Origin: Flavobacteriales bacterium
GTDB lineage: Bacteria; Bacteroidota; Bacteroidia; Flavobacteriales_E; Vicingaceae
Length of the DNA stretch: 56,460 bases
Assembly (NCBI GenBank): GCA_029262875.1
Contig: JAJCYO010000057.1
Location: 1-56,460 of the forward strand
Reading direction: 5' to 3'
Shown: positions 12,916-28,636 of the stretch, piece by piece
How positions within the stretch are numbered: position 1 is the first letter of the stretch
Layout of the letters: each line of letters begins with the position of its first letter
Translations under genes and position numbers: made by a program
Notes under the pieces: generated by a model
Seen by the model: the letters and a program-made list of their open reading frames with translations, nothing else
Database searches by the model: none
Told to the model about the DNA's origin: nothing

Positions 12916-14799
12916 ATGAATGACACAATTCAAACCAAGGAAAAGCCATCGAAAAAAACTTCGAAAGCAATAAAAATCGATGAACATATAGTAGAAATTG
13001 TTAGTGATTCTGGAGAGGGAGCACAAAAATGTGGGGTGAGCTTCGCAGCAATATCTGCCAAAATGGGAAATGGAGTCTGGACAGTGGAAATTATACCTGC
13101 AGAAATTCAGCCACCAGCACGTAGTAGAGCTGGAGCATCTGGAATCCGTATCCGAATTGGAACCAAGGAGATTACCAACTCTGGCAACGAAGCCAATTTG
13201 GTAATTGCTTTAAACGAGCAAGTGCCTTACGGAAGAATCGATCAAAATGCTTACAACGAAAACACCATTATGCTATTGGAGAGCAAATGGGCTACTGATG
13301 CAGACGAGAACATCCGAAACAAGTATGCCGATGCATTGGCAGATTTTAAATCCAGAGGATACAATGTGATTGAAATCCCAATGGAAGTAGAATGTTTGAA
13401 GGTCGTGAAGAATGCACGAAAAGGAAAGAACATGTGGGTATTGGGAATGTTAAGCTTCATCTATAATCGTGGAATCGAAGCAGGTGAACAGCAGATTAAA
13501 AATATTTTTAGAAAAAAATCAGATGCTATTATCAACTCCAATATTGAGTTATTAAGAGCAGGTTATAAATGGTCAGAAGCTAACTTAGATTTCCAATATG
13601 ATATTCCTGTTGTAAATTCAGGTAGAGATATGGTTGTAATGAATGGTAATGAAGCCATAGGCTTAGGCGTATTAGCTTCAGGAATGGAAGTATGCTCTAT
13701 GTATCCAATTACGCCAGCTACCTCAGCCTCTCATTTATTGGCTGATATTTTTGAGAAATCTGGAGGTTTAGTTCACCAAGCAGAAGACGAGATTGCTGCA
13801 GTTGGATTTGCTATCGGTTCTTCTTATGCTGGAAAAACGGCAGTCACCATTACTTCAGGACCTGGTATGGCGTTAAAAACAGAATTTTTAGGATTAGCTA
13901 CCATGGCCGAAGTACCATTAGTTGTTGTAAATGTTCAACGTGGAGGTCCATCAACAGGATTACCAACCAAAGTAGAACAGGGAGATTTACTTTCTACAAC
14001 TTATGGAATGCCAGGAGATGCACCTAAAATAGTAATGGCAGTGGCAACAATTGAAGAGTGTTTTCACTTTGTGATCTTAGCTCGTAAACTTGCAGAATCA
14101 TTTAGAACACCTGTTTATATTTTAACCGATGCCAACTTAGCAACAGGCCAACAACCTTTCCAAAGACCACAAATTAAAAAAGATTGGTTTGCTCCGCCAA
14201 TAGATCAAAGCCCTTGGAAAGGAGATGTTAGACCATATGAGTGGGATGATGTAACAGGATTAAGTAAGCGACCTATCCCTGGTCAGTTAGGTGGGCAACA
14301 TACTTTAACAGGACTTGCTCACACAAGAGAGGCACATGTATCTTATCATCCTAACGAAAATCAAGATTCATCAGAATTAAGGAGTAGAAAATTTGCTGCT
14401 TTCCAAAAAACACTAAAACCACCAACCATCAATGGAGATGAAAAAGGTGATTTACTGATTGTTGGTTGGGGATCAACACTTGGTGCTATTGAAGAAGGAG
14501 TAGAAATTGCGCGAAAAGAAGGCATCAAAGTTTCTTCCATTCACTTACGTTTCTTAAGTCCATTAGAACCTGGATTAAAAGAAATTTTCAAAAACTTTAA
14601 GAAAGTGATGACCATTGAAATTAACTACAGTGATAGCCCTGACAATCCTCAATTTACTGAAGAAAATAGGCGTTTTTCCCAGTTATCATGGATGCTAAGA
14701 GCAAGCACATTAACAGACATAGATTGTTACTCAAACGTAGAAGGGCAACCGCTTTCACCAAAAAGAATTGTGGATGTAATAAAAAATAAATTAGCATAG
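12916..14799 (+). CDS. korA: 2-oxoacid:acceptor oxidoreductase subunit alpha (gamma-alpha fusion)
   Basis: The 627 residues combine an N-terminal gamma domain (about 22-205, starting VEIVSDSGEGAQ) with an alpha domain (about 235-627). The alpha domain has the thiamine-pyrimidine-side motif YPITPATSAS, the conserved acidic residues in HQAEDEIAAVGFA, and the RGGPSTGLPTK loop that binds substrate or CoA. It lacks its own ferredoxin domain. With KorB it oxidises a 2-oxoacid to acyl-CoA and CO2 and reduces ferredoxin. The usual substrate of this two-subunit type is 2-oxoglutarate, but pyruvate or branched-chain oxoacids cannot be excluded. It is first of eleven closely spaced genes that continue into an Rnf complex; the korB start follows 23 bases after the stop. 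Confidence 0.93.
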   Translation: MNDTIQTKEKPSKKTSKAIKIDEHIVEIVSDSGEGAQKCGVSFAAISAKMGNGVWTVEIIPAEIQPPARSRAGASGIRIRIGTKEITNSGNEANLVIALNEQVPYGRIDQNAYNENTIMLLESKWATDADENIRNKYADALADFKSRGYNVIEIPMEVECLKVVKNARKGKNMWVLGMLSFIYNRGIEAGEQQIKNIFRKKSDAIINSNIELLRAGYKWSEANLDFQYDIPVVNSGRDMVVMNGNEAIGLGVLASGMEVCSMYPITPATSASHLLADIFEKSGGLVHQAEDEIAAVGFAIGSSYAGKTAVTITSGPGMALKTEFLGLATMAEVPLVVVNVQRGGPSTGLPTKVEQGDLLSTTYGMPGDAPKIVMAVATIEECFHFVILARKLAESFRTPVYILTDANLATGQQPFQRPQIKKDWFAPPIDQSPWKGDVRPYEWDDVTGLSKRPIPGQLGGQHTLTGLAHTREAHVSYHPNENQDSSELRSRKFAAFQKTLKPPTINGDEKGDLLIVGWGSTLGAIEEGVEIARKEGIKVSSIHLRFLSPLEPGLKEIFKNFKKVMTIEINYSDSPDNPQFTEENRRFSQLSWMLRASTLTDIDCYSNVEGQPLSPKRIVDVIKNKLA

Positions 14800-14822
14800 A
14801 ACTCAGATAAAACCAGATAAAG

Positions 14823-15776
14823 ATGTACGGATTAAAATCAGATATAGCATTAGACCTTCCTTCAAAATATTATTCATTAGAAAACTATGAAAAGGGAGTT
14901 GCACGTTGGTGTCCAGGATGTGGTGATCACGCTGTATTAACTAACATGCAAAAACTATTACGAGAGAAACAGCTACAACCAGAAAAAACTGTATTTGTTT
15001 CTGGGATTGGATGTTCTTCAAGGTTCCCTCATTACATGGACACTTATGGCTTCCATGGTCTTCATGGAAGAGCATTTCCTGTAGCAGAAGGAATTAAATT
15101 TAGAAGACCAGATTTAGATGTTTTCGTAGTAACTGGGGATGGTGATTGTTGTTCAATTGGTGCTGGAGCATGGATTCATGCCATTAGATATAATATGAAC
15201 ATGACAGTTCTTTTATTAAACAACGAAATTTATGGGTTAACAAAGAAACAAGCATCACCAACATCAAGAGTTGGTACTGTTTCCAATACAACGCCTGACG
15301 GCTCCATTCTTCCTCCTTTAAGTCCTATACAAACTACTTTAGGTGTTTCAAACGCTTCATTCGTGGCTCAAACTGCGGATTGGAACCCAGCACACATGTA
15401 TGAAACAATTAAAGCTGCCTACGAACACAAAGGGTTTTCATTTATCCATGTGATTCAAAGGTGTCCAATTTTTCAAGGAGCATTAGCTGATGAACAAGTA
15501 GCAGATAAAGATGCTCTGGTTTATTTGAATCATGATAATGGGATTCAAGTAGATGAAACTATTGCTAAGACTTTTAAAAATGAACTTAACCATGATCCAA
15601 CAGATTTATCTGTCGCAAGAAATTTAGCCATGGATCCGGAGAAAATTTACATGGGGTTATTTTACCAAGACAAAAATGCTCCTTGTTACGATGACCATGG
15701 AGCTTCGAACATTGGATTTACAGTAGAACAAAAAGAAGCGGCATTAAATGCGGAGCTGGATAAATTCGCTATTTAA
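14823..15776 (+). CDS. korB: 2-oxoacid:ferredoxin oxidoreductase subunit beta
   Basis: A 317-residue thiamine-diphosphate subunit. The [4Fe-4S] ligands are C30 and C33 (WCPGCG), C64 (GIGCSS) and C214 (QRCPIF). The thiamine-binding motif runs from GDGD at 105-108 to the NNEIYG at 133-138. The usual TGGQ after this motif is TKKQ here. All residues for catalysis appear present, so this subunit with KorA should be the only active 2-oxoacid-oxidising unit of the cluster. The C-terminal 75 residues are a helical extension. It is followed after 29 bases by a giant protein carrying a ferredoxin domain, which is the obvious candidate for electron acceptor. Confidence 0.93.
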   Translation: MYGLKSDIALDLPSKYYSLENYEKGVARWCPGCGDHAVLTNMQKLLREKQLQPEKTVFVSGIGCSSRFPHYMDTYGFHGLHGRAFPVAEGIKFRRPDLDVFVVTGDGDCCSIGAGAWIHAIRYNMNMTVLLLNNEIYGLTKKQASPTSRVGTVSNTTPDGSILPPLSPIQTTLGVSNASFVAQTADWNPAHMYETIKAAYEHKGFSFIHVIQRCPIFQGALADEQVADKDALVYLNHDNGIQVDETIAKTFKNELNHDPTDLSVARNLAMDPEKIYMGLFYQDKNAPCYDDHGASNIGFTVEQKEAALNAELDKFAI

Positions 15777-15805: not shown

Positions 15806-18331
15806 ATGTCAACAAAAGAGAAAAGCACATTTAGCCATTTTTTTAAAGAAGATGCCGAACACATTCAGGACATCCTCCAAGGAACAAATGGCCAACCTTT
15901 AGCAAATAAATTAGGTGCTGCAACCAAAGAAATATTCCCCAAAATAAATGGAGGTTCCGAAGTTTCAGAAAATGAGATGACCTCAAAATGGAGAAGTTTA
16001 AGATCCTTTTTTAGAAGCGGAATAAGCACTGAAGAATTTAAGGGTGAGTTATCTCCTGTAATAATGTCTCCTTTATACACCAATACATTGATAGGTACAG
16101 AGTTTCCTGTTTGGGTTGCAGATGAATCTTTTGAGGGAGAAGGCGCTCAATGTCTTTCATTGAAAGAGATGCTAACAACATGCCTTGAGAAAATTGCACC
16201 TGAAGGTGAGGATGCTCATATCTTAAAAGAAAATATAGCGCGTATTGTCCATATTGCTAATCAACAACTAAAAGACAATAAACCACAACTGTTTAAATCG
16301 GCCATCCAAAATATCTTGGATGAATTAGAAAGTCAATTGGATGTTTCAGGAGATGAAGTAAGTAAATTTAATACTAGCTTAAAAGAATTAAAAGAAATAT
16401 TGCCATCATGTGGCGCTTTGCTCCCTTATTCGAATAACACCTCTTTTCAATTGTTGGAAGCTGCAATGCTAACTACGCATGGTCAAGCAAGAAAAAAATT
16501 AGCTTATGATATTTCACAGTTAAAATGTAGGCTAAAAGACTTGCTTAGAGTTGAGAGAGAAAAAAATCCAACTGAAGCTGGTGGAGCTAAGACCAAAGAA
16601 TCTTATGACTTTGCTGATGCTATGATGAACATTGAGGAAATTTCTACAATGGACCCTGGAGCTGGAGCAGAAAGTATGGGACCAGAAAGAGTTGAAAGAA
16701 TAACCGGTGTAATTGCAGAATTAGAACTTGCCGATAAAATGCTTACGCAAACAAGCTTCCTTTTTGTAGATGAAATAGTTCACGCCAATAAAAGTACAGA
16801 TTGGAAATCTCTATTTGAAGACAGCGAGGTTAAACCCTATAAGAAAGGTGGAGGTTGCGATGCTATTAACGCCTGCTTCACTAAAAACATTTCTGCTTGG
16901 ACAAAATTATTTGTTGCTAAAAGAATTGGGGAATTAGAATTTGAAAGTAGTTACATGGCCGATGTTCATGATGATTATTTTACTCATTTTGGTTGGGAGA
17001 ATTTCTCTTCCGAAGAACTTAGTAATTGTCCTCACTTTGTTTTAATCGCTGACGATGTGCAGTTATTTGAAACTGAATTAAGCAAACTATCATCTACGTT
17101 AACTCACAACATTCCTATAAAGATAGTTGCTGTAAAAAGAGACAACTATGGAACAACCGATGTGCATTCTCAAACTGAGTTAGGCGCTTTAATGATTTCT
17201 CATAAAAACATATTTGTGGCGCAGTCTACTTCAATTACACCAACCTATTTATTTGATGGTTTTGCACGTGGGTTAAACTCATTTGCTCCAGCATTTTTTA
17301 ACGTGTTGAATGTTGATCAGAGCACACATGATAATCCATACCTATGGACAAGTGCTTCTGTTGAAAGTAGAGAATTCCCAGGATTCACATTCAATGGAGT
17401 TTTAGGCACTTCCTGGGGAAGTAGATTTGAAGTAGCCAATAATCCACAACCAAACCAAAAATATCCAATCCATACATTAGCAATTATTGATGAAGCTGGC
17501 GAAAAAGTTGATACCGACTTTCCGTTCACTTTTGCTGATCAAGCAGCTTTAAATCCTGCATTTCATGGTCACTTCATGAATGTTGATGCATCTTATTGGA
17601 ACGAAAATTTAATCTCAATAACAGACTACATCGAAAATAGTGCTGAAGATAATGTTGGAAAAGTTCCTTTTGTTTGGATGATGAATGCAGCCAATGAATT
17701 ACAAAAAGTTGCTGTTTCATGGCCACTCGTACTGGCAACTCAAGAACGTTTAGACTTCTGGAGGTTTTTACAAGAAAGCAGCGGAATAAACAACTATCAT
17801 GTTGGCAAAGCATTGGCCAATGCAAAAGAAGATTTTCAAGCAGACCTTGACGCTGCTGTTGCACAATTGAATGAAGAGCATGCCACTGAAATTCAAGCTG
17901 TAAGAGACGAAGAATCTGGGAAAGTAATGGAGAATTTAACCTCCGTACTACTTAACTTAGATACAAGTAATGTAGTAACCACAAGTGCTCCTGGATCTAA
18001 TGCAACTCCGGCAAGTAGTGCCGTTACAGAAACAGAAGAGCCAGTGGCTGAAGAAGCCACTGCCGAAGAAGAAAGTGCCTTATCGAATGATCCATATATT
18101 GATACCGCTTTATGTACATCTTGCAATGAATGTACTAATATGAACGGGCAACTGTTTAAGTATAATGGAGATAAAATGGCATACATCAATGATCCAAAAG
18201 CTGGAAGCTTTAGCGAATTAGTTGAAGCTGCTGAACTTTGCCCTGTTGCAATTATACATCCTGGCTCACCTCTTGATCCTAATGAAGCAGACTTAGATAG
18301 TTTAGTCGAAAGAGCAGCAAAATTTAATTAG
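15806..18331 (+). CDS. Decayed PFOR-like domain with coiled coil and C-terminal [4Fe-4S] ferredoxin domain
   Basis: The 841 residues form a mostly helical N-terminal region (1-380) without a known motif, then a domain at about 385-560 that aligns by eye with the C-terminal part of the 1229-residue protein encoded two genes on. Shared marks are FVLIADD, LFDGFARGL, PAFFN and SREFPGFTFN. In that paralogue the same region can be traced to the thiamine domain of pyruvate:ferredoxin oxidoreductase; here no GDG thiamine motif remains. A coiled coil follows (about 670-720), then an Ala/Glu linker and a ferredoxin domain with C770, C773, C776 and C812. It probably carries electrons between KorAB and RnfB rather than catalysing. 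The stop is 4 bases before rnfB. I know no named family for the full-length protein. Confidence 0.6.
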   Translation: MSTKEKSTFSHFFKEDAEHIQDILQGTNGQPLANKLGAATKEIFPKINGGSEVSENEMTSKWRSLRSFFRSGISTEEFKGELSPVIMSPLYTNTLIGTEFPVWVADESFEGEGAQCLSLKEMLTTCLEKIAPEGEDAHILKENIARIVHIANQQLKDNKPQLFKSAIQNILDELESQLDVSGDEVSKFNTSLKELKEILPSCGALLPYSNNTSFQLLEAAMLTTHGQARKKLAYDISQLKCRLKDLLRVEREKNPTEAGGAKTKESYDFADAMMNIEEISTMDPGAGAESMGPERVERITGVIAELELADKMLTQTSFLFVDEIVHANKSTDWKSLFEDSEVKPYKKGGGCDAINACFTKNISAWTKLFVAKRIGELEFESSYMADVHDDYFTHFGWENFSSEELSNCPHFVLIADDVQLFETELSKLSSTLTHNIPIKIVAVKRDNYGTTDVHSQTELGALMISHKNIFVAQSTSITPTYLFDGFARGLNSFAPAFFNVLNVDQSTHDNPYLWTSASVESREFPGFTFNGVLGTSWGSRFEVANNPQPNQKYPIHTLAIIDEAGEKVDTDFPFTFADQAALNPAFHGHFMNVDASYWNENLISITDYIENSAEDNVGKVPFVWMMNAANELQKVAVSWPLVLATQERLDFWRFLQESSGINNYHVGKALANAKEDFQADLDAAVAQLNEEHATEIQAVRDEESGKVMENLTSVLLNLDTSNVVTTSAPGSNATPASSAVTETEEPVAEEATAEEESALSNDPYIDTALCTSCNECTNMNGQLFKYNGDKMAYINDPKAGSFSELVEAAELCPVAIIHPGSPLDPNEADLDSLVERAAKFN

Positions 18332-18335
18332 CAGG

Positions 18336-19214
18336 ATGGGAGAAGATTTTCTCATACCATTAGCCATCCTTGTCGGACTCGGCCTGTTGTTTGGGCTTAT
18401 CTTAGCTTTAGCTTACAAACAATTTAAGGTATACGAAGATCCAAGAATAGATGTAGTAGAAGATTTATTACCGAATGCTAACTGCGGTGCTTGTGGAGTT
18501 CCGGGTTGCAGGGCATTTGCAGAATCCATCATTAACGATGGAACCAACCCTGCTAAATGTACCGTTAGTTCTGAAGATGGAATCACCAACATTGCTAATT
18601 TCTTGGGAGTGGAAGCCAATGCCGAAGATAAAATTGTAGCACGATTACTTTGCGCTGGGGGAATTAAAGAAGCCCACAACCTTGCAGATTACAAAGGTGG
18701 AATGAGTACTTGTCGAGGAGAAACTGTTGTTGGCGGAGGAGGAAAAGATTGTTCTTGGGGATGCTTAGGTTTAGGGGATTGCGCTAAAGCTTGTGATTTT
18801 GAAGCAATTACGATGAGTGATGATGCGTTACCAGTAGTTGACACAGAAAAGTGTACCGCCTGTAATGATTGTGTTATTGAATGTCCAAAAGGGCTTTTCA
18901 AGTTAATGCCGATCAACCAAAAATTATTGGTTCAGTGTCGTTCATTATTAGAAGGTGATTTAGCAGAATCGAAATGCAGTGTAGCCTGCACAGGCTGTTC
19001 TCGTTGTGCTGCTGATGCTGCTCCAGATGTGATTGAGATAGTCGAAAATTTAGCTGTAGTAAATTACGAATTGAATGATTTAGCAACTTCTGCAGCAGTA
19101 AAAAGATGCCCAACAGATGCCATTGTTTGGCTTGAAGGAGATAATCAATTTGAAGCTGTCACTAAAATAGATTTACCGTTGGGAAGAGTTGAAGAGGAAG
19201 TGTATTACCAATAA
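18336..19214 (+). CDS. rnfB: Rnf complex subunit RnfB
   Basis: A 292-residue iron-sulfur subunit that receives electrons from ferredoxin. An N-terminal membrane anchor (about 6-28) is followed by the RnfB cluster C50, C53, C58 and C75 (NCGACGVPGC), a ferredoxin pair with C139/C143/C149/C153 and C173/C176/C179/C183, and a further cysteine group C214/C218/C221/C224 with C258-P that looks like a third ferredoxin-type motif. This is longer than the proteobacterial RnfB and similar to the long forms of anaerobes. It is flanked on both sides by giant PFOR-like proteins, 4 and 11 bases away, rather than by other rnf genes. That position implies direct contact between these proteins and RnfB. Confidence 0.92.
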   Translation: MGEDFLIPLAILVGLGLLFGLILALAYKQFKVYEDPRIDVVEDLLPNANCGACGVPGCRAFAESIINDGTNPAKCTVSSEDGITNIANFLGVEANAEDKIVARLLCAGGIKEAHNLADYKGGMSTCRGETVVGGGGKDCSWGCLGLGDCAKACDFEAITMSDDALPVVDTEKCTACNDCVIECPKGLFKLMPINQKLLVQCRSLLEGDLAESKCSVACTGCSRCAADAAPDVIEIVENLAVVNYELNDLATSAAVKRCPTDAIVWLEGDNQFEAVTKIDLPLGRVEEEVYYQ

Positions 19215-19225
19215 ACGAAGCTATT

Positions 19226-22200
19226 ATGAAAGAAATAATTGAAAAATTAGCATACAAAGTAGGGGAAGGATTTCAATCTTCGGCAGTGAGTGATTCTGCC
19301 AGTCAGGTAAATGCATTTCATAGAAACGTTTTTGTACATGAATCCTCAGATATTTCTTTCATTAATGGATTAGTTTCTACTGGACTCCGAGGTGCTGCAA
19401 TTTTAGATGGAGAAAAATTAATCGCTAACTACAATCAATTTCTAACTGCATCAAGACAGCATCTTCCTTTGGTTATTAATACAAATGCAAGAGTAGTTAA
19501 TGAATCTACATTTTCTACCATTAACAACTATGGCAACATAAATGCTATTCAACAAACCGGTTGTTTTCAACTGGTTGCTACTTCATTACAAGAAGAAATA
19601 TTCTTAACACTAATCGCACATAAAATAACCGAGCTGTCTCTGATACCGGGAATAGTAATTTCCGATTATACACCGAATGATGAGAAAGTTGGCGTGCCTG
19701 CGGACGATTTAATTAGAAATTATCTCGGTGATCCTGATGATCAAATTAATTGCCCTACTCCATCTCAAGAGATTATTTTTGGCAAAACGAGAAGAAGAAT
19801 ACCAAACTGGTATAGTTTAGATATTCCAGTAATGTTAGGCTCCAAAAAAGATGGGGAAGCCATGTCTTTTGAAGCAGCTGCATCTCAAAAATATTTTTAT
19901 GATCACCTTCCACAGCTCATAAAACAAGCATTTGCAGAGTTTACTATGGTGTTTGGTACAAATGTTGACCCCATCACTACAAAAGGAAACTCATCAGAAC
20001 ATGCAATAATTACTATTGGTGGTAAAATAGGTGAAGTGTTTTCAAATGATAATGCTGAGTTAATTGTTGTCAACCAAATTAACCCTTTCCCATTAGCTAA
20101 AATTACTGAACTGGTTAAAGGGAAAAAAGGAATTACAATTCTTGAAAATGCAGGCTCAGGCATTGCTAAATCATCATTCTATTATGATGTAATTAGTGCC
20201 GCTGATAGTGCAAAATCAAAAGTTTATTACGGTAAATATAGTGCAGATGTTACTACTGGATCTTTGAATAAGGCCATCCAACATATGGTGTCAGGTCAAC
20301 CAAAAGCAGAATATTTCTTAGGTGTAGAATTCACAAAAGAATCGAGCAGCTATCCTAAGCATGATATCTTATTACAAGAAATTGAAAAAAAATACCCTGG
20401 TTTATCAGGTGAAACAATCAATGATAATTCTAAGGAACATACTTCGTCAGGTCAACAAAGTGAAGTTCCTTTAGCTGTTAGAATGTATCAAGATAAGGGC
20501 CCTAATTACTCTCGTTTATCTCGGTTTTATGATGATACTGCTTTCTTTTATGAGCACGATGATCATAGTGAATTAGTGGCAGACCCTTTTGCTGCAGTAC
20601 CTATAGCACCAAGTGCAAGTGCAAGTTTCTTTAATCAATCTTCAGAAAGAACTTGGTTACCGATTATTGATATTACAAAGTGTACAGGAGATGGTGACAA
20701 TTTTGTCAACTGCCCTCACTCAGCATTACTACCAATTGTTATAGGTGTTGAACAACTCATGAAAACTGGAGCAGATATAGCAGCCACTAAAGGTGTTGTT
20801 ATTACTAAGTTAACTCCTATGATAAAGAATTTAGCAAAGGTTTCAGCTAAATCGATTGCCGAAACGGAAGGAAAAACAGTGGAGGATTTTCTTCCAGCGG
20901 CATTTGAAAATTTGGCTAAACAAATGAAGTTGGATGGTGAGAAATTAGCAGACGCGCAAAACGAATTTAATGCTGTGATGAGCGAAATAGGTGAGCTGCC
21001 AGTTGCTGTTACCGATACATTCTTTAATCAACCAACTGCACAAGATGCTGGAAGCGGGGAGTTCTTTTCATTGGCAGTAAACCCATCCTCATGTACAGGT
21101 TGTGGAATATGTGCTCAAGTGAGCGAAGCCATTTCTATGGAAGAACAAGACAGTGAAAAGTTAGGTGAAATTACAGCTCAATTTAAATTATGGGAACAAT
21201 TGCCTGACACTTCAGGTGACACCATTAATCGATTATTCCATGATGAAAATTACAGCTCTTTAGCTGCAATGATGCTTAGTAGAAGCTACTTCATGTCAAT
21301 GTCAGGAGCCAGTAAATGTGAAAGCAACAATCCTTACAAAACATTATTACACATTATTACAGCTACAACAGAGTCGGTTGTACAACCAAGAATAATTAAT
21401 CAGATCAATCAAATTGATGAGTTAATTGAATCGCTATCAGAAAACGTACATAAAAAACTAAGTAACGCTTTACCCAAAGAAAATTTAGATAAACTGGCCA
21501 AATCACTAAAAAAGGCACAAGGCCAAAAACTATCTTTTCAGGATGTAGTTAGTGAGATTACTGAAGGTGAAAACAGTCAAATGATCGATAGTAAATTATT
21601 GGGAAGAAAGACAGATTTAGTAGATGACTTAAAAAACTTAAAATGGGTCTTGTCTGAAGGGCCGACAGGAGTTGGTAGATCACGATATGGAATGTTAATG
21701 GCTGGAGAAAATTCTATGGAATGGGCGAAACAATATCCTGCAAACAATTTTACCAATCCATCAGTAATACATTGGAATGGCTCGGCTCCTGAGCAAACGT
21801 TAGGTTTGTTTCATGGTCAGTTACGTTATTTGATTGACAACATCAAACTAATGCGAAGAGCTAGTTTAGAGGCAAAAGACAAATATGACCCCGTCATTCA
21901 TGATTTAGAAATAGCCGAGTTAACTTGGAGTGAATTAACGGATGATGAGAAAAACTTAATCCCCCCTATTCTATTAATTGCTGAAAGGGATGATTTAAAT
22001 GAAGTGGGTTGGAGTAGTTTAAATAGCTTATTGGCAGAAAATTATCCAGTGAAAGTATTCTTATTTGACAACATTACTTCACCGAATAACTCTCCAATAG
22101 CCAATTTAACACAAACCATTTCTGGAATGTTTAGTACTATGGCCTTAAAGAATGCATATGTATTCCAAGGTGGCATGGGAGATGCTGATCATTTATTTGA

Positions 22201-22915
22201 TGGCTTAATGACAGGTTTAGATAAAAGCTATCCTGCTCTTTTTAATCTATATGCTACCAAATATGAAAAACATGGTGTAATAGATGTGGATTGGTCTCCG
22301 TATGCAAGTTTAGCTTTAAACAGCAGAGCGTTCCCATCATTTGCTTTTAATCCAGAAGAGAAAAACAATTTCTTAAATGGAGCTATTAATATTGAAGGGA
22401 ATGGAGCTCCCAAAGAAGATTGGGTTACAGAAAATCTTCCCGTCTCAGAAGAGGAAACAATAGAGTATGCTGTTACATGGGCAGATTGGGCATACACTCA
22501 AAGTGATTGGAAAACAGAATTTAAGCCAGTTGAATCAGTTGATACCACTGCTGCTGTTGCCGACTATATGAAATTAGACCTTAAGGCAAGAAAAGGAAAA
22601 ACTCCCGTTATTATTCGAGTAAATTCAGAGGGCATTTGTTATTATGAGGTAAGCGATAAAGTTATTGAAATGACCGATGCGGTTTTAACCAACTGGAACA
22701 CGCTTCAGGAATTGGCTGGAGAAGTTGCAGCTATTCCTAAGAAATTGAGGGAAGAATTGACTCAAGAAATTAGTAGTAAATACGAAGAAGAGATTGCTAC
22801 TCTTAAAAAAGATTACGAAAAGCAGCTCAGTGATGCAGCAGCAGCTCAAACAGAACAATTAAGACAACAATTAAAAGAAAAATTAGTAGCACTTTCGTCA
22901 ATGGCGAGAAGCTAA
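19226..22915 (+). CDS. NifJ-like (pyruvate:ferredoxin oxidoreductase) paralogue that has lost cofactor motifs
   Basis: The 1229 residues follow the order of NifJ. The N-terminal domain keeps the AIQQTGCFQL and IPGIVISDY regions of PFOR domain I, then comes a transketolase-C-like region (about 255-330). The tandem ferredoxin domain is damaged: the first cluster retains only C486 and C496 (NCPHS), the second has C623, C626 and C629 with Ser633 where the fourth Cys should be. The SGACAGCGETPY region is SGASKCESNNPY (C698), and the GDG thiamine motif is replaced by ERDD at 920-923. A coiled coil ends the protein. It should not bind thiamine. A structural or electron-relay role between KorAB and Rnf is inferred. 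It lies between rnfB and rnfC with gaps of 11 and 3 bases. Confidence 0.65.
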   Translation: MKEIIEKLAYKVGEGFQSSAVSDSASQVNAFHRNVFVHESSDISFINGLVSTGLRGAAILDGEKLIANYNQFLTASRQHLPLVINTNARVVNESTFSTINNYGNINAIQQTGCFQLVATSLQEEIFLTLIAHKITELSLIPGIVISDYTPNDEKVGVPADDLIRNYLGDPDDQINCPTPSQEIIFGKTRRRIPNWYSLDIPVMLGSKKDGEAMSFEAAASQKYFYDHLPQLIKQAFAEFTMVFGTNVDPITTKGNSSEHAIITIGGKIGEVFSNDNAELIVVNQINPFPLAKITELVKGKKGITILENAGSGIAKSSFYYDVISAADSAKSKVYYGKYSADVTTGSLNKAIQHMVSGQPKAEYFLGVEFTKESSSYPKHDILLQEIEKKYPGLSGETINDNSKEHTSSGQQSEVPLAVRMYQDKGPNYSRLSRFYDDTAFFYEHDDHSELVADPFAAVPIAPSASASFFNQSSERTWLPIIDITKCTGDGDNFVNCPHSALLPIVIGVEQLMKTGADIAATKGVVITKLTPMIKNLAKVSAKSIAETEGKTVEDFLPAAFENLAKQMKLDGEKLADAQNEFNAVMSEIGELPVAVTDTFFNQPTAQDAGSGEFFSLAVNPSSCTGCGICAQVSEAISMEEQDSEKLGEITAQFKLWEQLPDTSGDTINRLFHDENYSSLAAMMLSRSYFMSMSGASKCESNNPYKTLLHIITATTESVVQPRIINQINQIDELIESLSENVHKKLSNALPKENLDKLAKSLKKAQGQKLSFQDVVSEITEGENSQMIDSKLLGRKTDLVDDLKNLKWVLSEGPTGVGRSRYGMLMAGENSMEWAKQYPANNFTNPSVIHWNGSAPEQTLGLFHGQLRYLIDNIKLMRRASLEAKDKYDPVIHDLEIAELTWSELTDDEKNLIPPILLIAERDDLNEVGWSSLNSLLAENYPVKVFLFDNITSPNNSPIANLTQTISGMFSTMALKNAYVFQGGMGDADHLFDGLMTGLDKSYPALFNLYATKYEKHGVIDVDWSPYASLALNSRAFPSFAFNPEEKNNFLNGAINIEGNGAPKEDWVTENLPVSEEETIEYAVTWADWAYTQSDWKTEFKPVESVDTTAAVADYMKLDLKARKGKTPVIIRVNSEGICYYEVSDKVIEMTDAVLTNWNTLQELAGEVAAIPKKLREELTQEISSKYEEEIATLKKDYEKQLSDAAAAQTEQLRQQLKEKLVALSSMARS

Positions 22916-22918
22916 GTA

Positions 22919-24286
22919 ATGATAAAAATGTCATCGACAACTACATATAAAGGCAAAACCTACACGTTTAATCACGGTGTACATCCTGAGGAATTTAAAA
23001 CCTTGAGCAGTCACTGTGAAGTGCAACGAATGCCATTTGTAGATGAATACACCTTACCCTTAGGGCAGCACATTGGAGCACCAAGTAAAGCGTTAGTGAA
23101 CAAAGGTGACAAAGTTAAGAGGGGGCAGAAAATAGCAGATGCTGGAGGTTTTGTTTCAGTTGCATTACATTCTCCAGTTGACGGAACTGTGAGTGATATC
23201 GGAATTTTTGATAATCCAAACGGGCAAGTTTTACCAGCCATTAAAATCAAAACAGATCCTTATAGTACGCAAAGAGTTGAAGACCTTCCAATAGATATAG
23301 AAAACTTAGATACAAAAGAATTTATCTCTGCAGTGCAAGATGCTGGAATCGTTGGATTAGGTGGAGCAGCATTTCCTACCCATGTAAAGTTTGCTATTCC
23401 TGAAGGAAAAAAATGCAAATACATCATGCTAAATGGATGTGAGTGCGAACCTTTTTTAACTGCCGACCACAGGGTGATGGTCGAAAGTCCAGAAGAGATT
23501 ATTGATGGTATTATTATTTTAAACAAATACCTCAATGCAGAAAAAGCATACATCGGAATTGAAGCCAATAAACCGGATGCAATTGAAGCGCTAAAGAAAG
23601 TTGCTGCAACCAGTAGCTTCCCTATAGAGGTGATGGCCCTTCAAGTGAAATATCCTCAAGGAGCCGAAAAAATGATGATTACAGCTATTTTAGGGGAAGA
23701 AGTTCCTAGTGGGAAACTACCGTTAGACTTAGGTGTTTTAGTTGGAAACGTTGGAACGTTTAAAGCCTTAGCAGAATATTTTAGAAAAGGAAAACCCTTG
23801 GTAGAAAGAGTGGTTACTGTTACAGGAACCGCTATTAAAAACCCTGCAAATGTATTGGTTCCTATTGGAACGCCCATGAGAGATGTTATTGAATTATGTG
23901 GAGGAATAACTGACGATGCAGCAAGAATATTATTAGGTGGCCCCATGATGGGAGCAGTTCAAAAAAGTTTAGATGTGCCAGTGGTTAAAGGAACATCAGG
24001 AATATTAATCTTAACCAACAACGAGGTAAGAGATTTAGAAGAATATAACTGTATTCGATGTGGGAAATGTGTAGATGCTTGTCCCATCTTTTTAAATCCC
24101 TCCATGATGGGAATGTTAGCCAAAAAAGGATTGTGGGATGAGATGTTAGAATACAATGTGATGGATTGTTTTGAGTGTGCAAGCTGCTCCTTTGTTTGCC
24201 CATCAGCAATTCCATTGGTACAAAGTTTTAGAGTAGCCAAAGGATTTTTAAGAGAGAAAGCAGCAAGAGAAAAGGAAACGAATTAG
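22919..24286 (+). CDS. rnfC: Rnf complex subunit RnfC
   Basis: A 455-residue peripheral subunit carrying the NADH/FMN site. The N-terminal domain contains HSPVDGTVSDI, the Rossmann-like core starts GLGGAAFPTHVKF (nucleotide binding), and the C-terminal part has two [4Fe-4S] motifs: C378/C381/C384/C388 and C417/C420/C423/C427. It is short, without the repetitive tail of the proteobacterial proteins. A second ATG three codons downstream (MSSTTTYKG) may be the true start. It accepts electrons via RnfB and reduces NAD+. The gap to rnfD is one base, which indicates tight translational coupling. Confidence 0.95.
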   Translation: MIKMSSTTTYKGKTYTFNHGVHPEEFKTLSSHCEVQRMPFVDEYTLPLGQHIGAPSKALVNKGDKVKRGQKIADAGGFVSVALHSPVDGTVSDIGIFDNPNGQVLPAIKIKTDPYSTQRVEDLPIDIENLDTKEFISAVQDAGIVGLGGAAFPTHVKFAIPEGKKCKYIMLNGCECEPFLTADHRVMVESPEEIIDGIIILNKYLNAEKAYIGIEANKPDAIEALKKVAATSSFPIEVMALQVKYPQGAEKMMITAILGEEVPSGKLPLDLGVLVGNVGTFKALAEYFRKGKPLVERVVTVTGTAIKNPANVLVPIGTPMRDVIELCGGITDDAARILLGGPMMGAVQKSLDVPVVKGTSGILILTNNEVRDLEEYNCIRCGKCVDACPIFLNPSMMGMLAKKGLWDEMLEYNVMDCFECASCSFVCPSAIPLVQSFRVAKGFLREKAAREKETN

Positions 24287-24287
24287 A

Positions 24288-25301
24288 ATGGATTTGAGTA
24301 ATAAATTATCAGTATCAACGGCTCCTTTTTTAAAGGATAAAAACACCACGCCCAAAATTATGATGACGGTGGTGTATACACTGATTCCAATTGTAATGAT
24401 TTCGATCTACTACTTTGGATTAGCTGCATTATTAGTTACGATAACTTCTGTTTTCTCCTGCATGTTTACTGAATGGTTATTTAACAACAAACAAAAAGAT
24501 CGATTTAAATCCTTAAAAGATGGCAGTGGATTAATTACGGGTTTGTTATTGGCCTTAACCCTTCCTCCTGGATTTCCATTGTGGATGGTATTTATAGGTG
24601 GCTTTGTAGCCATTGGAATGGGAAAAGCGATGTGGGGTGGATTGGGTCAAAACATATTTAACCCTGCACTATTAGGAAGGGCATTTTTGCAAGCAGCATT
24701 TCCAACAGCCATTACCACTTGGTCTCCAGCAGATGGAAGATATTTTGGAATACGGGGAACCAATTTTGCAACACCATTTTTTCAAGGAGAAAATATTGAT
24801 GCCGTTTCTGGTGCTACACCTTTATCAAAAATGAAGTTCGATCATGTTGCCACAGATTCTTTTGAATTATTAATGGGAACAACGGGTGGTTCCTTAGGAG
24901 AAACATGCGCCCTATTATTGATTTTAGCAGGAGCATATTTGCTGATCAAAAAAATCATCAATTGGAGAATTCCGGTATCAATCATCTTAACAGTAAGTTT
25001 ATTCTCGGGGATTTTTTATATGATCAATCCAGAAATTTACCCATCCCCTATATTTATGCTGCTATCTGGTGGTATGTTATTAGGAACAGTTTATATGGCT
25101 ACCGATTTAGTAACCTCTCCACTAACACCTAAAGGAACCTGGATATTTGGAATAGGGATAGGAGTATTAATTGTATTGATTAGAATTTGGGGAGGATTAC
25201 CTGAAGGTGTGATGTACGCCATATTATTAATGAATGCCGGAACACCATTATTGAATCGTTTTACTAAAATTAGAACCTACGGGCATAAAAAAAGTAATTA
25301 A
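24288..25301 (+). CDS. rnfD: Rnf complex subunit RnfD
   Basis: A 337-residue integral membrane subunit related to NqrB. About nine hydrophobic segments are visible. Thr177 in DAVSGATPLS lies in the SGAT motif to which FMN is covalently attached in this family by a flavin transferase; no apbE gene is present in the window, so that enzyme must be encoded elsewhere. Conserved family stretches include GLLLALTLPPGFPLW and GGLGQNIFNPALLGRAFL. The stop codon overlaps the rnfG start by one base. Confidence 0.95.
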   Translation: MDLSNKLSVSTAPFLKDKNTTPKIMMTVVYTLIPIVMISIYYFGLAALLVTITSVFSCMFTEWLFNNKQKDRFKSLKDGSGLITGLLLALTLPPGFPLWMVFIGGFVAIGMGKAMWGGLGQNIFNPALLGRAFLQAAFPTAITTWSPADGRYFGIRGTNFATPFFQGENIDAVSGATPLSKMKFDHVATDSFELLMGTTGGSLGETCALLLILAGAYLLIKKIINWRIPVSIILTVSLFSGIFYMINPEIYPSPIFMLLSGGMLLGTVYMATDLVTSPLTPKGTWIFGIGIGVLIVLIRIWGGLPEGVMYAILLMNAGTPLLNRFTKIRTYGHKKSN

Positions 25302-26005
25302 TGAGCGAAGGAGAAGAAAATATAACCCCTGAAATAGTAGAGGAGAAAGAACCAAGTTCTTTAAAGCTGATTTTGGCTTTGGGAATTGCTGGTTTAATCT
25401 CTGGAATTATTTTAGTGGGAACTTATATCTATACCGATCCTTTGATAAAAGCAAACAAAGCAGCAGCAACTCAAAGTGCCATCTTTAAAGTCTTAGAAGG
25501 ATGCGAGTCTTTTACCACTTTAGTTCTTGAAAATGACAAGTTAGTTGAAAAAATTGTTGATCCAAACAAGGAGGAGAAGAACGATAAAGATGAACTCATT
25601 ATTTACGCGGGCTACAATGCCAATAAAGAACTAATTGGATTTGCTATTCCTGGAAGCGAACCTGGATTTCAAGATATTATTGGAACTATATTCGGTTATG
25701 ATGGGACAAAAAAAGTAATCATTGGGTTTGAAGTGCTGGAAAGTAAAGAAACTCCTGGACTGGGAGATAAAATATTTAAAGATGCCGATTTCCAAACCAA
25801 CTTTGCAGCACTTGCTATTGAACCAGAGATAATACCTGTAAAGAAAGGGGAAAAGCAAAACCCAAATGAAGTGGAAACAATTGCTGGAGCTACTATTTCT
25901 TCAAAAGCAGTTGTGCGCTTACTGAATAAAACAATGGCCGTTTGGCAAAAAACTATAGACGATTACATTAAAGAAAATGATTTAACCGTTGCTGAAAAAC
26001 AATGA
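25301..26005 (+). CDS. rnfG: Rnf complex subunit RnfG
   Basis: A 234-residue single-pass membrane protein related to NqrC. The transmembrane helix spans about residues 22-44, and the rest is an exported FMN-binding domain. Thr198 in the sequence AGATISSKAVV is the expected covalent FMN site. GSEPGFQDII and ETPGLGDKI are typical of RnfG/NqrC. It overlaps rnfD by one base and rnfE by four, which fits strictly coupled expression. Confidence 0.93.
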   Translation: MSEGEENITPEIVEEKEPSSLKLILALGIAGLISGIILVGTYIYTDPLIKANKAAATQSAIFKVLEGCESFTTLVLENDKLVEKIVDPNKEEKNDKDELIIYAGYNANKELIGFAIPGSEPGFQDIIGTIFGYDGTKKVIIGFEVLESKETPGLGDKIFKDADFQTNFAALAIEPEIIPVKKGEKQNPNEVETIAGATISSKAVVRLLNKTMAVWQKTIDDYIKENDLTVAEKQ

Positions 26006-26649
26006 GTGATATAGAAAATAAAAGTCAAGCCGCGCAGGAATTTTTAAAAGGACTCTGGAAAGAAAACCCTGTGTTTATTTCTGTGTTAGGAATGTGTCCT
26101 GCTTTGGCAGTAACCAATACAGCCATTAACAGTTTGGCGATGGGATTGGCCACTACTTTTGTGTTGTTATGCTCCAGTATTTTGGTCTCTTTGTTGAAAT
26201 CCATTATCCCAAAACAAGTTAGAATAACAGCTTACATTATCATTATTGCAACATTCGTTACGGTAGTAGATTTTTCATTGGCCGCATTCCTTCCAGCGAT
26301 TCATAAAGAACTTGGAGCATTTATCGCATTGATTGTGGTAAACTGTTTGATCTTAGGAAGGCAGGAAGCATTTGCCTCTAAAAACAGTGTTGGCTTATCC
26401 ATATTGGATGCTTTAGGAATGAGTGTTGGATTTACATTCGCCATGTTATGTATTGGGATGCCTAGAGAAATATTAGGAAGTGGTTCACTGTTTAATATTC
26501 CATTATTTGGTGAAAGCTTCGAACCGTGGGTAGTTATGATTTTACCTCCAGGCGGGTTCTTTATGTTAGGGTTTTTACTACTTGGATTTAACTGGTATGC
26601 ACAACGAAAAAAGGAAAGAGAATTAACTAAACAAACACAAAAAGTATAA
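26002..26649 (+). CDS. rnfE: Rnf complex subunit RnfE
   Basis: A 215-residue membrane subunit of the RnfE/NqrD family with about six transmembrane helices. The N-terminal GLWKENPVFISVLGMCPALAV contains the conserved half-helix cysteine that, in the Nqr/Rnf structures, helps to hold an intramembrane [2Fe-2S] cluster with the partner subunit; a second cysteine is in the VVNCLILGRQEAFA segment. It overlaps rnfG by four bases and rnfA by one. Confidence 0.94.
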   Translation: MSDIENKSQAAQEFLKGLWKENPVFISVLGMCPALAVTNTAINSLAMGLATTFVLLCSSILVSLLKSIIPKQVRITAYIIIIATFVTVVDFSLAAFLPAIHKELGAFIALIVVNCLILGRQEAFASKNSVGLSILDALGMSVGFTFAMLCIGMPREILGSGSLFNIPLFGESFEPWVVMILPPGGFFMLGFLLLGFNWYAQRKKERELTKQTQKV

Positions 26650-27224
26650 TGGGCGAATTGATTTGGATATTTGTTTCAGCGTTATTGGTAAACAATTTTA
26701 CTTTAGCTTATTTCTTAGGGTTGTGTCCATTCTTAGGCGTTTCTGGAAAACTACAAACTGCCTTCAGATTAGGATTAGCAAACATCTTTGTGATGCTAAT
26801 TACTGCTGCTTGTGCTTACGCATTAAACACTTGGGTCTTAGTTTATGCCCCCTATTTACGATTGATCAGTTTTATTATTGTAATTGCCAGTTCCGTCCAA
26901 TTTGTAGAGATGGCAGTTAAAAAATTGAGTCCAGACTTATTTCAGGCTTTAGGTATTTTCTTGCCGTTAATCACTACTAATTGCGCCATTTTAGGATTAG
27001 CACTATTCTCTACTAACAAAGGTTATGGGTTTTGGGAAGGAATGATATACGCTTTAGGAGCAGGCGGAGGAGTGACCTTAGCATTAGCATTATTGGCTGG
27101 AGTAAGAGAAGAAACAAGAATATTAAACATCCCTAAAGTAATACAGGGAACAGCTATTAACTTAATTATTGCAGGCATTATCTCAATGGCATTTATGGGA
27201 TTTGCTGGATTGTTTAGTTCATAA
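26649..27224 (+). CDS. rnfA: Rnf complex subunit RnfA
   Basis: A 191-residue membrane subunit of the RnfA/NqrE family, predicted to have six helices. NNFTLAYFLGLCPFLGVS and ITTNCAILGLALF carry the two cysteines expected to coordinate, with RnfE, the intramembrane [2Fe-2S] cluster. The usual length and motifs are complete. It is followed after 11 bases by a small cysteine-rich membrane protein that may help to assemble that cluster. Confidence 0.95.
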   Translation: MGELIWIFVSALLVNNFTLAYFLGLCPFLGVSGKLQTAFRLGLANIFVMLITAACAYALNTWVLVYAPYLRLISFIIVIASSVQFVEMAVKKLSPDLFQALGIFLPLITTNCAILGLALFSTNKGYGFWEGMIYALGAGGGVTLALALLAGVREETRILNIPKVIQGTAINLIIAGIISMAFMGFAGLFSS

Positions 27225-27235
27225 AATATAGAAAG

Positions 27236-27412
27236 ATGAAGTACATTATTCCCATATTATTTGTTGCAGCATTAAGTGCGGGGTGGGTAGTTGTACAACT
27301 TATCGCAAAAAAAATGAAAACAAAAAATCATATGGATGACCTTGGAAAAGGTGAATGTATGACTTGTACATGTGGAGGCACTGATGATGCTTGTACAAAC
27401 GAAAATAAATAG
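27236..27412 (+). CDS. Small membrane protein with CxxCxC...C motif, NqrM-like in layout
   Basis: A 58-residue protein starting MKYIIPILFVAALSAGW. One transmembrane helix (about 3-23) is followed by a basic stretch and a cysteine-rich tail with C41, C44, C46 and C53 (ECMTCTCGGTDDAC). It starts 11 bases after rnfA and is the last gene of the operon. NqrM, a small one-helix protein with four cysteines encoded beside nqr genes, is needed to mature Na+-NQR by supplying iron to the NqrD/NqrE cluster. RnfE and RnfA are homologues of those subunits. The spacing of cysteines here differs from NqrM, so this is an analogy of layout and position and not a confirmed homology. Real coding status is supported by its clear membrane/Cys pattern and operon spacing. 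Confidence 0.65.
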   Translation: MKYIIPILFVAALSAGWVVVQLIAKKMKTKNHMDDLGKGECMTCTCGGTDDACTNENK

Positions 27413-27450: not shown

Positions 27451-27843
27451 ATGGAAACAACAAGAGACCCAATTAACATTAACGATCAACACGAAAATAT
27501 TGTTAAAATGCTTGCCGAAATTGAAGGCTGTCAAGAAGAGCTTGAAAATATAAATAACGGTTTACTATTAGCAACCGAAAATACTTGTTCACAATATGGA
27601 GACCGTATATTAGAAAACATGCAAAGTAAATTATTTTACCTCCAAAGAGTATTAAGGCTAAGCACTCGTTCTTTAAATAAACATGAAGAAGTTTTAAAAC
27701 AAGCCATTAAAGGGTCTCTTTCTAAGAGTAAAAAAGAGCTTGAAGAATATTATGAGTATTGCCAAAAAAGTGCGGTTAAAATCAGGTTAAAACTTTCAAA
27801 ATTTGAGCAAGAAACACACGGTATTATTGCAAGTAATTGCTAA
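27451..27843 (+). CDS. Hypothetical helical protein
   Basis: A 130-residue, almost entirely helical, soluble protein with heptad-like leucines and no membrane segment. Three cysteines lie in the body (near 27, 46 and 104) and one is the last residue. No family is recognised. It starts 38 bases after the small NqrM-like gene on the same strand and is followed by a perfect hairpin terminator, so it may be the last gene of the oxidoreductase-Rnf transcript or have its own promoter. Nothing shows a redox role beyond this position. Confidence 0.6.
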   Translation: METTRDPININDQHENIVKMLAEIEGCQEELENINNGLLLATENTCSQYGDRILENMQSKLFYLQRVLRLSTRSLNKHEEVLKQAIKGSLSKSKKELEEYYEYCQKSAVKIRLKLSKFEQETHGIIASNC

Positions 27844-27920
27844 TAGCTCATTGTTTTAAATTTAAAGCACTATTAGCAGCAGCATCCAATAAATTTGACA
27901 ATATAAACCATAGGCCCGCA

Positions 27921-27962
27921 GTGAAAATAAACCCTCAATTTCTATTGAGGGTTTATTTTCAC
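27921..27962. terminator. Perfect 19-bp hairpin terminator, bidirectional
   Basis: A 19-bp stem (core AACCCTCAAT / ATTGAGGGTT) with a 4-base loop TTCT is flanked by A- and T-rich ends. It follows the 130-residue helical gene on the plus strand and contains the stop codon of the DUF2490 gene on the minus strand. It can serve both transcripts and probably ends the long Rnf-containing transcript. Confidence 0.8.
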
Positions 27963-28636
27963 TCCTTCTTTCTAAAATCTGGATTAAACACTAAAGCAAC
28001 CTGTAAATAGGTTTTTCCAAAACCATTTACATTCTGCCTTAGCAATCCAGCTTGAATTCCAGTATTAGAACGTAATTGGTAACCCAATGCTCCATATAAT
28101 CTGTTACGATCAAATATGGTTTCTTTATCGTTGATAAAAATTTCATCATAGATTCCTAAAAATAACGTTCCCTTTTCGATAGCTTTTTTATTTAAAGGAA
28201 TAAACAACATAAGACGGTAACGATAACGGTTTTTATAGACTTTATTCACCCAGCGCTGTTCGAAGCGGTAGCGATGTTCAAATTTAATTCGACCTACCTT
28301 ATTGGTCAGGATAAATTGTTGAAATATGCGACTCTCTTCAGATTCAGGGGTCGTTTGCTCACTTTCGTAAACATGTCCTGCCACGTAACCATAACCGGCA
28401 GTTAAAATGGCATTTTTGGCCATGTGAAAATTCAATCCTGTTCTAAGCAATAATTGCTCAGTATTTACTGGAGCTACTGTATGATTTCGATACTGGACTT
28501 CACTATGAATACTCAACTTATTGCTAATCTTATTGGTTCCAAAATACATCAACCAATTCCCCATCTGATCATTTTGAGCAGATAGTGTTTGGACAAAAAT
28601 TAGTAGGAATGCCCCAACCTTAATTAATTTATACAT
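27959..28636 (-). CDS. DUF2490 family outer-membrane protein
   Basis: A 225-residue exported protein with signal peptide (residues 1-20, ending LSAQ). The start of the mature part, GNWLMYFGTNKISNKLSIHSE, and later EHRYRFEQRW and YRYRLML strands are typical of DUF2490 proteins, which are predicted small outer-membrane beta barrels with alternating polar and hydrophobic residues. The function is unknown. The stop codon lies within the bidirectional hairpin. The gene upstream on the same strand, which encodes a small exported protein, is 118 bases away and may be co-transcribed. Confidence 0.8.
   Translation of the reverse strand: MYKLIKVGAFLLIFVQTLSAQNDQMGNWLMYFGTNKISNKLSIHSEVQYRNHTVAPVNTEQLLLRTGLNFHMAKNAILTAGYGYVAGHVYESEQTTPESEESRIFQQFILTNKVGRIKFEHRYRFEQRWVNKVYKNRYRYRLMLFIPLNKKAIEKGTLFLGIYDEIFINDKETIFDRNRLYGALGYQLRSNTGIQAGLLRQNVNGFGKTYLQVALVFNPDFRKKE

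Follow-up and report, generated by a model that had tools for sequence, protein, structure and literature searches.

A gene for a small four-cysteine protein next to rnfA is specific to one branch of Rnf complexes and encodes a probable maturation factor

Introduction

The closest described counterpart of the protein analyzed here is NqrM (DUF539, PF04400). According to the accessible portions of two sources, NQR seemingly depends on it for the insertion of its intramembrane cluster, and NqrM is predicted to deliver iron to NqrD/NqrE (PMC12174285, PMC6209661). In the part of a 2025 review of Rnf and NQR that was available, NqrM is named for NQR only and how the Rnf cluster is inserted is not told (PMC12174285). 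No Rnf protein of the kind reported below was recognised in the literature consulted on Rnf assembly and maturation, which covers subscription papers thinly and includes three sources in excerpt (PMC12174285, PMC6209661, PMC13108547). A second point of comparison is RnfH of the Azotobacter vinelandii RNF1, which likewise accompanies a single type of Rnf as an additional protein, but is said in the same excerpted review to be a subunit that has no cofactor; this comparison is by description only (PMC12174285).

The small gene and its operon

The window (the whole stretch of DNA that was analyzed, 56,460 nucleotides) contains a complete rnf set (rnfB, rnfC, rnfD, rnfG, rnfE and rnfA) beside a short open reading frame with four cysteine codons. 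The features of the region are the following:

12916-15776, + strand: korA/korB-like 2-oxoacid:ferredoxin oxidoreductase genes (12916-14799 and 14823-15776) at the head of the cluster
15806-18331, + strand: NifJ C-terminal-like protein with a ferredoxin tail; only Fer4_13 recognised
18336-19214, + strand: rnfB, with the PF04060 Fe-S domain and Fer4
19226-22915, + strand: NifJ-like large protein before rnfC, with a weak POR_N match and one 4Fe-4S motif; also in the clusters of most relatives
22919-24286, + strand: rnfC
24288-25301, + strand: rnfD
25301-26005, + strand: rnfG
26002-26649, + strand: rnfE, with cluster-ligand Cys 32 and 115 present
26649-27224, + strand: rnfA (Rnf-Nqr, E 2.5e-53; best NCBIfam model rnfA), with cluster-ligand Cys 26 and 112
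27236-27412, + strand: small four-cysteine gene, 58 residues; helix at about 4-31, Lys-rich stretch at 25-32, tail CxxCxC(x6)C with Cys 41, 44, 46 and 53
27451-27843, + strand: ORF of 130 residues downstream of the small gene, kept in both congeners; no convincing family match
27920-27963, + strand: terminator-like hairpin of 20 pairs, likely the end of the rnf operon

The small ORF translates as MKYIIPILFVAALSAGWVVVQLIAKKMKTKNHMDDLGKGECMTCTCGGTDDACTNENK. Its coordinates, its length, the single helix, the positions of the four cysteines and the gap of 11 bases after rnfA had all been given correctly in the initial annotation, as re-reading confirmed. The frame is kept at the same place in two congeners (G001 and G002), with identities of 81 and 84% and all four cysteines present. 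Codon comparison of the three congener pairs gave dN/dS values of 0.087/1.07, 0.103/0.505 and 0.141/1.51, and a dN of 0.09-0.14 against a dS of 0.5-1.5 indicates purifying selection on the protein. Judged by this conservation, the ORF is a real gene, and Pfam and NCBIfam look-ups with the window protein matched it to no family.

Cys 26 and 112 of RnfA and Cys 32 and 115 of RnfE, which we take to be the cluster ligands named from NQR and Rnf structures, were present in every aligned sequence: 89/89 and 90/90, respectively, for the two RnfA positions and 89/89 for each of the RnfE positions. They are also kept in two NQR outgroup rows.

Together, rnfCDGEA, rnfB, the NifJ-like genes and those for 2-oxoacid:ferredoxin oxidoreductase make up a conserved supercluster. 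The order korA-korB-nifJc-rnfB-nifJ-rnfCDGEA is common to the window and to genome G229 (L274), and the other clusters mostly read nifJ-rnfCDGEA-FNR-rnfB, where the small gene comes directly behind rnfA. The FNR-like gene encodes an NAD-binding domain (PF00175) and separates the small gene from rnfB at L116 (6403-7263) and in most clusters; no match to it was found in the loci of the window, the congeners or G229. Since it and then rnfB follow downstream in most clusters, the small gene lies inside the operon there. Between lineages, the NifJ-like proteins share only 21-30% identity, and their role may be partly structural.

Anatomy of the small protein

AlphaFold2 predicted one helix (residues 4-31) for the window protein and a tail without confident structure, with a mean pLDDT of 68.5. 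Six columns are invariant in the 25-row family alignment (W17, Q21, C41, C44, C46 and C53 in window numbering), the first two of them within a conserved helix signature, W..(V/I)Q, and a typical tail of the family reads DEDVLAERRSCGNCGCTKVCKKE. Of the 39 members, window included, 38 have an intact CxxCxC...C motif; in the remaining one, L174, the fourth cysteine is absent from a frame that ends near the contig end, and this sequence was omitted from the family profile. In all 39 proteins the count of Lys and Arg is higher after the helix than before it, and by the positive-inside rule the cysteine tail is thus predicted to be cytoplasmic. Searches of PDB chains returned 25 matches for the family, at E 0.13 or worse and mostly to aminopeptidase N, and a single match for NqrM (E 0.59), none of them meaningful.

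Distribution of the small gene

In a phylum sample of 392 genomes, RnfC scored above the model cut-off in 50. The rnf loci inspected were 49 besides that of the window and those of the two congeners, 51 in all, and every one of them had the order C-(D-G)-E-A with rnfC, rnfE and rnfA found (rnfG was undetected by tblastn in a few). A CxxCxC...C frame directly after rnfA was present among these loci only in G205 (L116) and the two congeners. The idea of a factor serving Rnf generally therefore fails, given that 47 of the 50 Rnf-bearing phylum genomes had no such frame after rnfA and that the gene is confined to one branch. One further genome, G229, has an overlapping frame after rnfA (L103, 6353-6556) that encodes a helix followed by CGGSCATGEC, with three cysteines. 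It is perhaps a diverged member of the family; the family HMM does not detect it, and G229 was not counted as a carrier.

A search of the phylum sample with the 25-row profile matched six of the 392 genomes, of which the window genome (G000) and G205 had full-length matches next to rnfA. The matches in the remaining four genomes (E 1.5e-4 to 1e-3) were partial or broken by stops and were read as unrelated. The genomes without RnfC above the cut-off, apparently from the same draw of 392, gave no full-length open match to this profile. Among 97 relatives of G205, a four-sequence profile gave 10 strong matches (E 3.6e-9 or better), all beside rnfA, and partial matches at E 0.0185-0.08 in six further genomes or places. 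When the RnfA of G205 was searched in the same 97 genomes, identities of 76-100% were obtained in 10, and these were exactly the carriers of the small protein; the remaining RnfA matches were mostly 40-50% identical, as NqrE would be (they were not classified singly), and came with no strong small-protein match. The same pattern was seen among 100 genomes related to that of the window, where the three carriers were the three with a 97-100% identical RnfA and most others had an RnfA homologue at 42-54% only. Four weak matches to the window sequence in this set, other than itself and the two congeners (E 0.009-0.067), were judged to be unrelated frames.

A scan of named genomes placed the small gene on 38 contigs, these being the part of 167 pattern stretches that was confirmed by tblastn (the other 129 are outside the count). 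On all 38, rnfA lies upstream on the same strand, with 9 to 525 bases between the end of the rnfA alignment and the small gene. Short frames after rnfA in related genomes thus do conserve the four cysteines on which the initial proposal turned. The carrier records include Algoriphagus, Aquiflexum, Cognataquiflexum, Cecembia, Mariniradius, Fulvivirga, Roseivirga, Saprospiraceae, Lewinellaceae and Cyclobacteriaceae, together with three gammaproteobacterial carriers (Methylotuvimicrobium buryatense, Methylomicrobium sp. wino1 and one MAG), and a further copy is located on a Persicobacter megaplasmid. In viral contigs, a search with a four-row alignment yielded 139 pattern matches and no confirmed relative. 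Two loci from genomes close to G205 (L138 and L139, 1498-1563) share an identical 22-residue frame ending in GNGSCRSCVCWL, reminiscent of the cysteine tail; there is no helix in this frame and no rnfA match nearby.

Confinement to one Rnf branch

A tree of RnfE plus RnfA (92 rows, quick IQ-TREE) united the 42 carriers and G229 in one clade with an SH-aLRT support of 100, and the 47 non-carrier Bacteroidota Rnf fell outside it, so that carriage changes once on the tree. One row (L161) has a long branch, probably owing to a cut contig and a false RnfE pick, and was kept in the count. It is important to note that the small protein itself was the means of finding the 38 contigs, and the tree therefore shows confinement to the clade more than universal presence; the less biased evidence on co-occurrence is that of the RnfC- and RnfA-based surveys above. 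Within a single genome, M. buryatense has three RnfC genes, and the small protein is encoded beside the NifJ-linked Rnf operon only and not beside the other two; the same genome has NqrM near an nqrF match. This within-genome contrast points to specificity for a type of Rnf. Since the small protein also tracks one Rnf branch exactly, even among genomes with only an NqrE-like homologue, a role specific to Rnf is well supported by the comparative data. The small proteins, as delimited by these comparisons, are a family that is specific to one Rnf branch and recognised by no library model tried here.

Relation to NqrM and FeoB-associated proteins

The layout of the small protein resembles that of NqrM in its N-terminal helix and short basic cysteine-rich tail ending C(x)C...C, and each of the two is encoded in one operon with its pump, the two pumps sharing the same kind of intramembrane [2Fe-2S] site between two subunits. 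However, the first two cysteines of the small protein are two residues apart (four or more in the NqrM rows), the linker between helix and cysteines is longer by 16 alignment columns, the W..(V/I)Q signature distinguishes the helix, and the gene is linked to rnfA (on 38 of 38 contigs) and not to nqr genes, the partner being Rnf. GSCGG is found in all 16 rows of the NqrM control set, which was drawn from plasmid records and gammaproteobacterial genomes, and the small-protein family has CGNCGC or CMTCTC instead. PF04400, a model that works on proteobacterial NqrM and matched 4/4 NqrM proteins scanned in the same way, matched none of 25 small proteins at E up to 10, and neither family HMM found members of the other in the loci searched.

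Profile-profile comparison of the small-protein family with NqrM, as a single-template comparison, gave probabilities of 92.8 and 92.2%, and 91.3% with tool alignments, and the alignment pairs the SCG[GN] and CxC...C stretches of the two families. When the NqrM tail columns were shuffled, at most 88.6% was reached, and 0 of 200 shuffles were as high as the real comparison. Shuffling the small-protein tail gave at most 92.0%, and none of 300 shuffles equalled the real score, although the best came close (36.09 versus 36.83); the window sequence alone reached a weak 21% against NqrM, which also counts against kinship. For comparison, the FeoB-associated (PF12669) profile scored 77-79% against the small-protein family (hhalign, 17 Bacteroidota rows including one bad one-residue row) and 2.8% against NqrM. 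A first FeoB-associated control set contained wrong-frame rows and was replaced by this rebuilt one. The profile results are suggestive of a remote relationship between the small-protein family and NqrM, and on the sequence differences we file the small protein not as NqrM but as a separate family.

PF04400 found no NqrM above cut-off in 99 sampled genomes of the window's class. In the set of 100 relatives, 57 carry an RnfA/NqrE homologue, and the window genome itself has an nqr operon (C149, L119). On a Parabacteroides plasmid, the two short genes that follow nqrF are not cysteine-rich and were rejected.

Proposed function and alternatives

RnfE/RnfA carry a site homologous to that of NqrD/NqrE, and we propose an NqrM-like role for the small protein, namely as a dedicated factor for insertion of iron or a [2Fe-2S] cluster at the RnfA/RnfE site of this Rnf branch. 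We put the probability of this reading at about 0.55. The single helix would anchor the protein in the inner membrane, leaving the short tail on the cytoplasmic side. There its four cysteines would hold iron or a nascent cluster and pass it on to RnfA/RnfE, where the intramembrane [2Fe-2S] is bound by four conserved cysteines; the Rnf served would be the one encoded with the NifJ/2-oxoacid:ferredoxin oxidoreductase genes. A donor of iron or cluster is the best explanation for the combination of a membrane-anchored, cytoplasm-facing four-cysteine tail, a gene next to rnfA and inheritance with the type of RnfA. We infer all four of the membrane orientation (from the positive-inside rule), the iron binding, the transfer to RnfA/RnfE and the distant kinship with NqrM. 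Of the initial suggestion of an NqrM-type factor, the kind of function is thus retained, at the probability just given and with a suggestive profile link, but membership in NqrM is not, given the unmatched PF04400, the lack of GSCGG and the separate family.

Several observations speak against a maturation factor. Most Rnf, including two in M. buryatense, have no such neighbour and the NQRs of the window's class have no NqrM match, which means that cluster insertion does not generally depend on one. The conserved cysteines would, in addition, suit a permanent metal-binding subunit. Such a subunit, with its own Fe-S cluster or zinc and in contact on the cytoplasmic side with, for example, the NifJ-like or RnfB modules, is the strongest competing explanation, one that we regard as possible and yet unlikely. 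Four invariant cysteines suit a cluster, strict association with one branch of Rnf and a conserved helix face (W, Q) are what a subunit would show, and RnfH provides a precedent for an extra Rnf subunit, said to be without redox cofactor in the excerpt available (PMC12174285). The predicted tail without confident structure, the NqrM-like layout and the lack of any related PDB chain at a meaningful E-value count against a subunit. More doubtful is a specific form of the subunit explanation, in which a NifJ-Rnf supercomplex would always and permanently include the protein, and the protein's own Fe-S centre on the cytoplasmic face would relay electrons between the NifJ/RnfB modules and the RnfA/RnfE cluster. 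If that were true, electron transfer in this branch of Rnf would involve one redox step more than has been described for Rnf or NQR.

We consider it improbable that the protein is a thiol or redox sensor or regulator of this Rnf. Its CxxC and CxC pairs could form disulfides and the operon presumably handles low-potential electrons, but Pfam and NCBIfam look-ups found no regulator domain, nothing positive was found for this role, and four invariant cysteines on a lone helix look more like metal handling. Very improbable is a cysteine-rich membrane protein of the FeoB-associated type (PF12669), concerned with general ferrous iron uptake or handling, that joined the operon by chance. Such proteins are also small, with one helix and cysteines in the tail, and besides the profile comparison above PF12669 itself matches three of the 25 members with E-values of 1.1 or higher, a level at which they are not placed in that family. 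In contrast, their score is below that of NqrM, their tails mostly have a two-cysteine CxxC and not CxxCxC...C, the strong matches to the small protein all lie beside rnfA, and the window genome already has a separate weak PF12669 match. We know of no rnf neighbour for the FeoB-associated protein. Finally, a spurious ORF, which might be supposed from the failure of the family libraries tried to recognise it, is refuted by conservation, with dN well below dS and both position and motif kept across about 40 loci.

The small gene, inherited with a single branch of Rnf, is a concrete target for deletion, and M. buryatense, with its three RnfC genes, NqrM and the small protein beside one Rnf operon, makes specificity testable in one laboratory organism. 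The maturation reading, if true, would suggest that pumps of the Rnf/NQR superfamily use at least two different small cysteine proteins, and the question is raised why most Rnf need no such factor. The hosts of the small gene are, we assume, mostly aerobes; exposure to oxygen was not adopted as the reason for needing the factor, since the aerobic M. buryatense has two Rnf without the small protein.

Gammaproteobacterial clusters

Three gammaproteobacterial records (L178, L179 and L180), two of them from methanotrophs, contain the NifJ-Rnf cluster with the small gene and are placed inside Cyclobacteriaceae in the RnfE plus RnfA tree. This placement suggests that the gammaproteobacterial NifJ-Rnf cluster was transferred from Bacteroidota.
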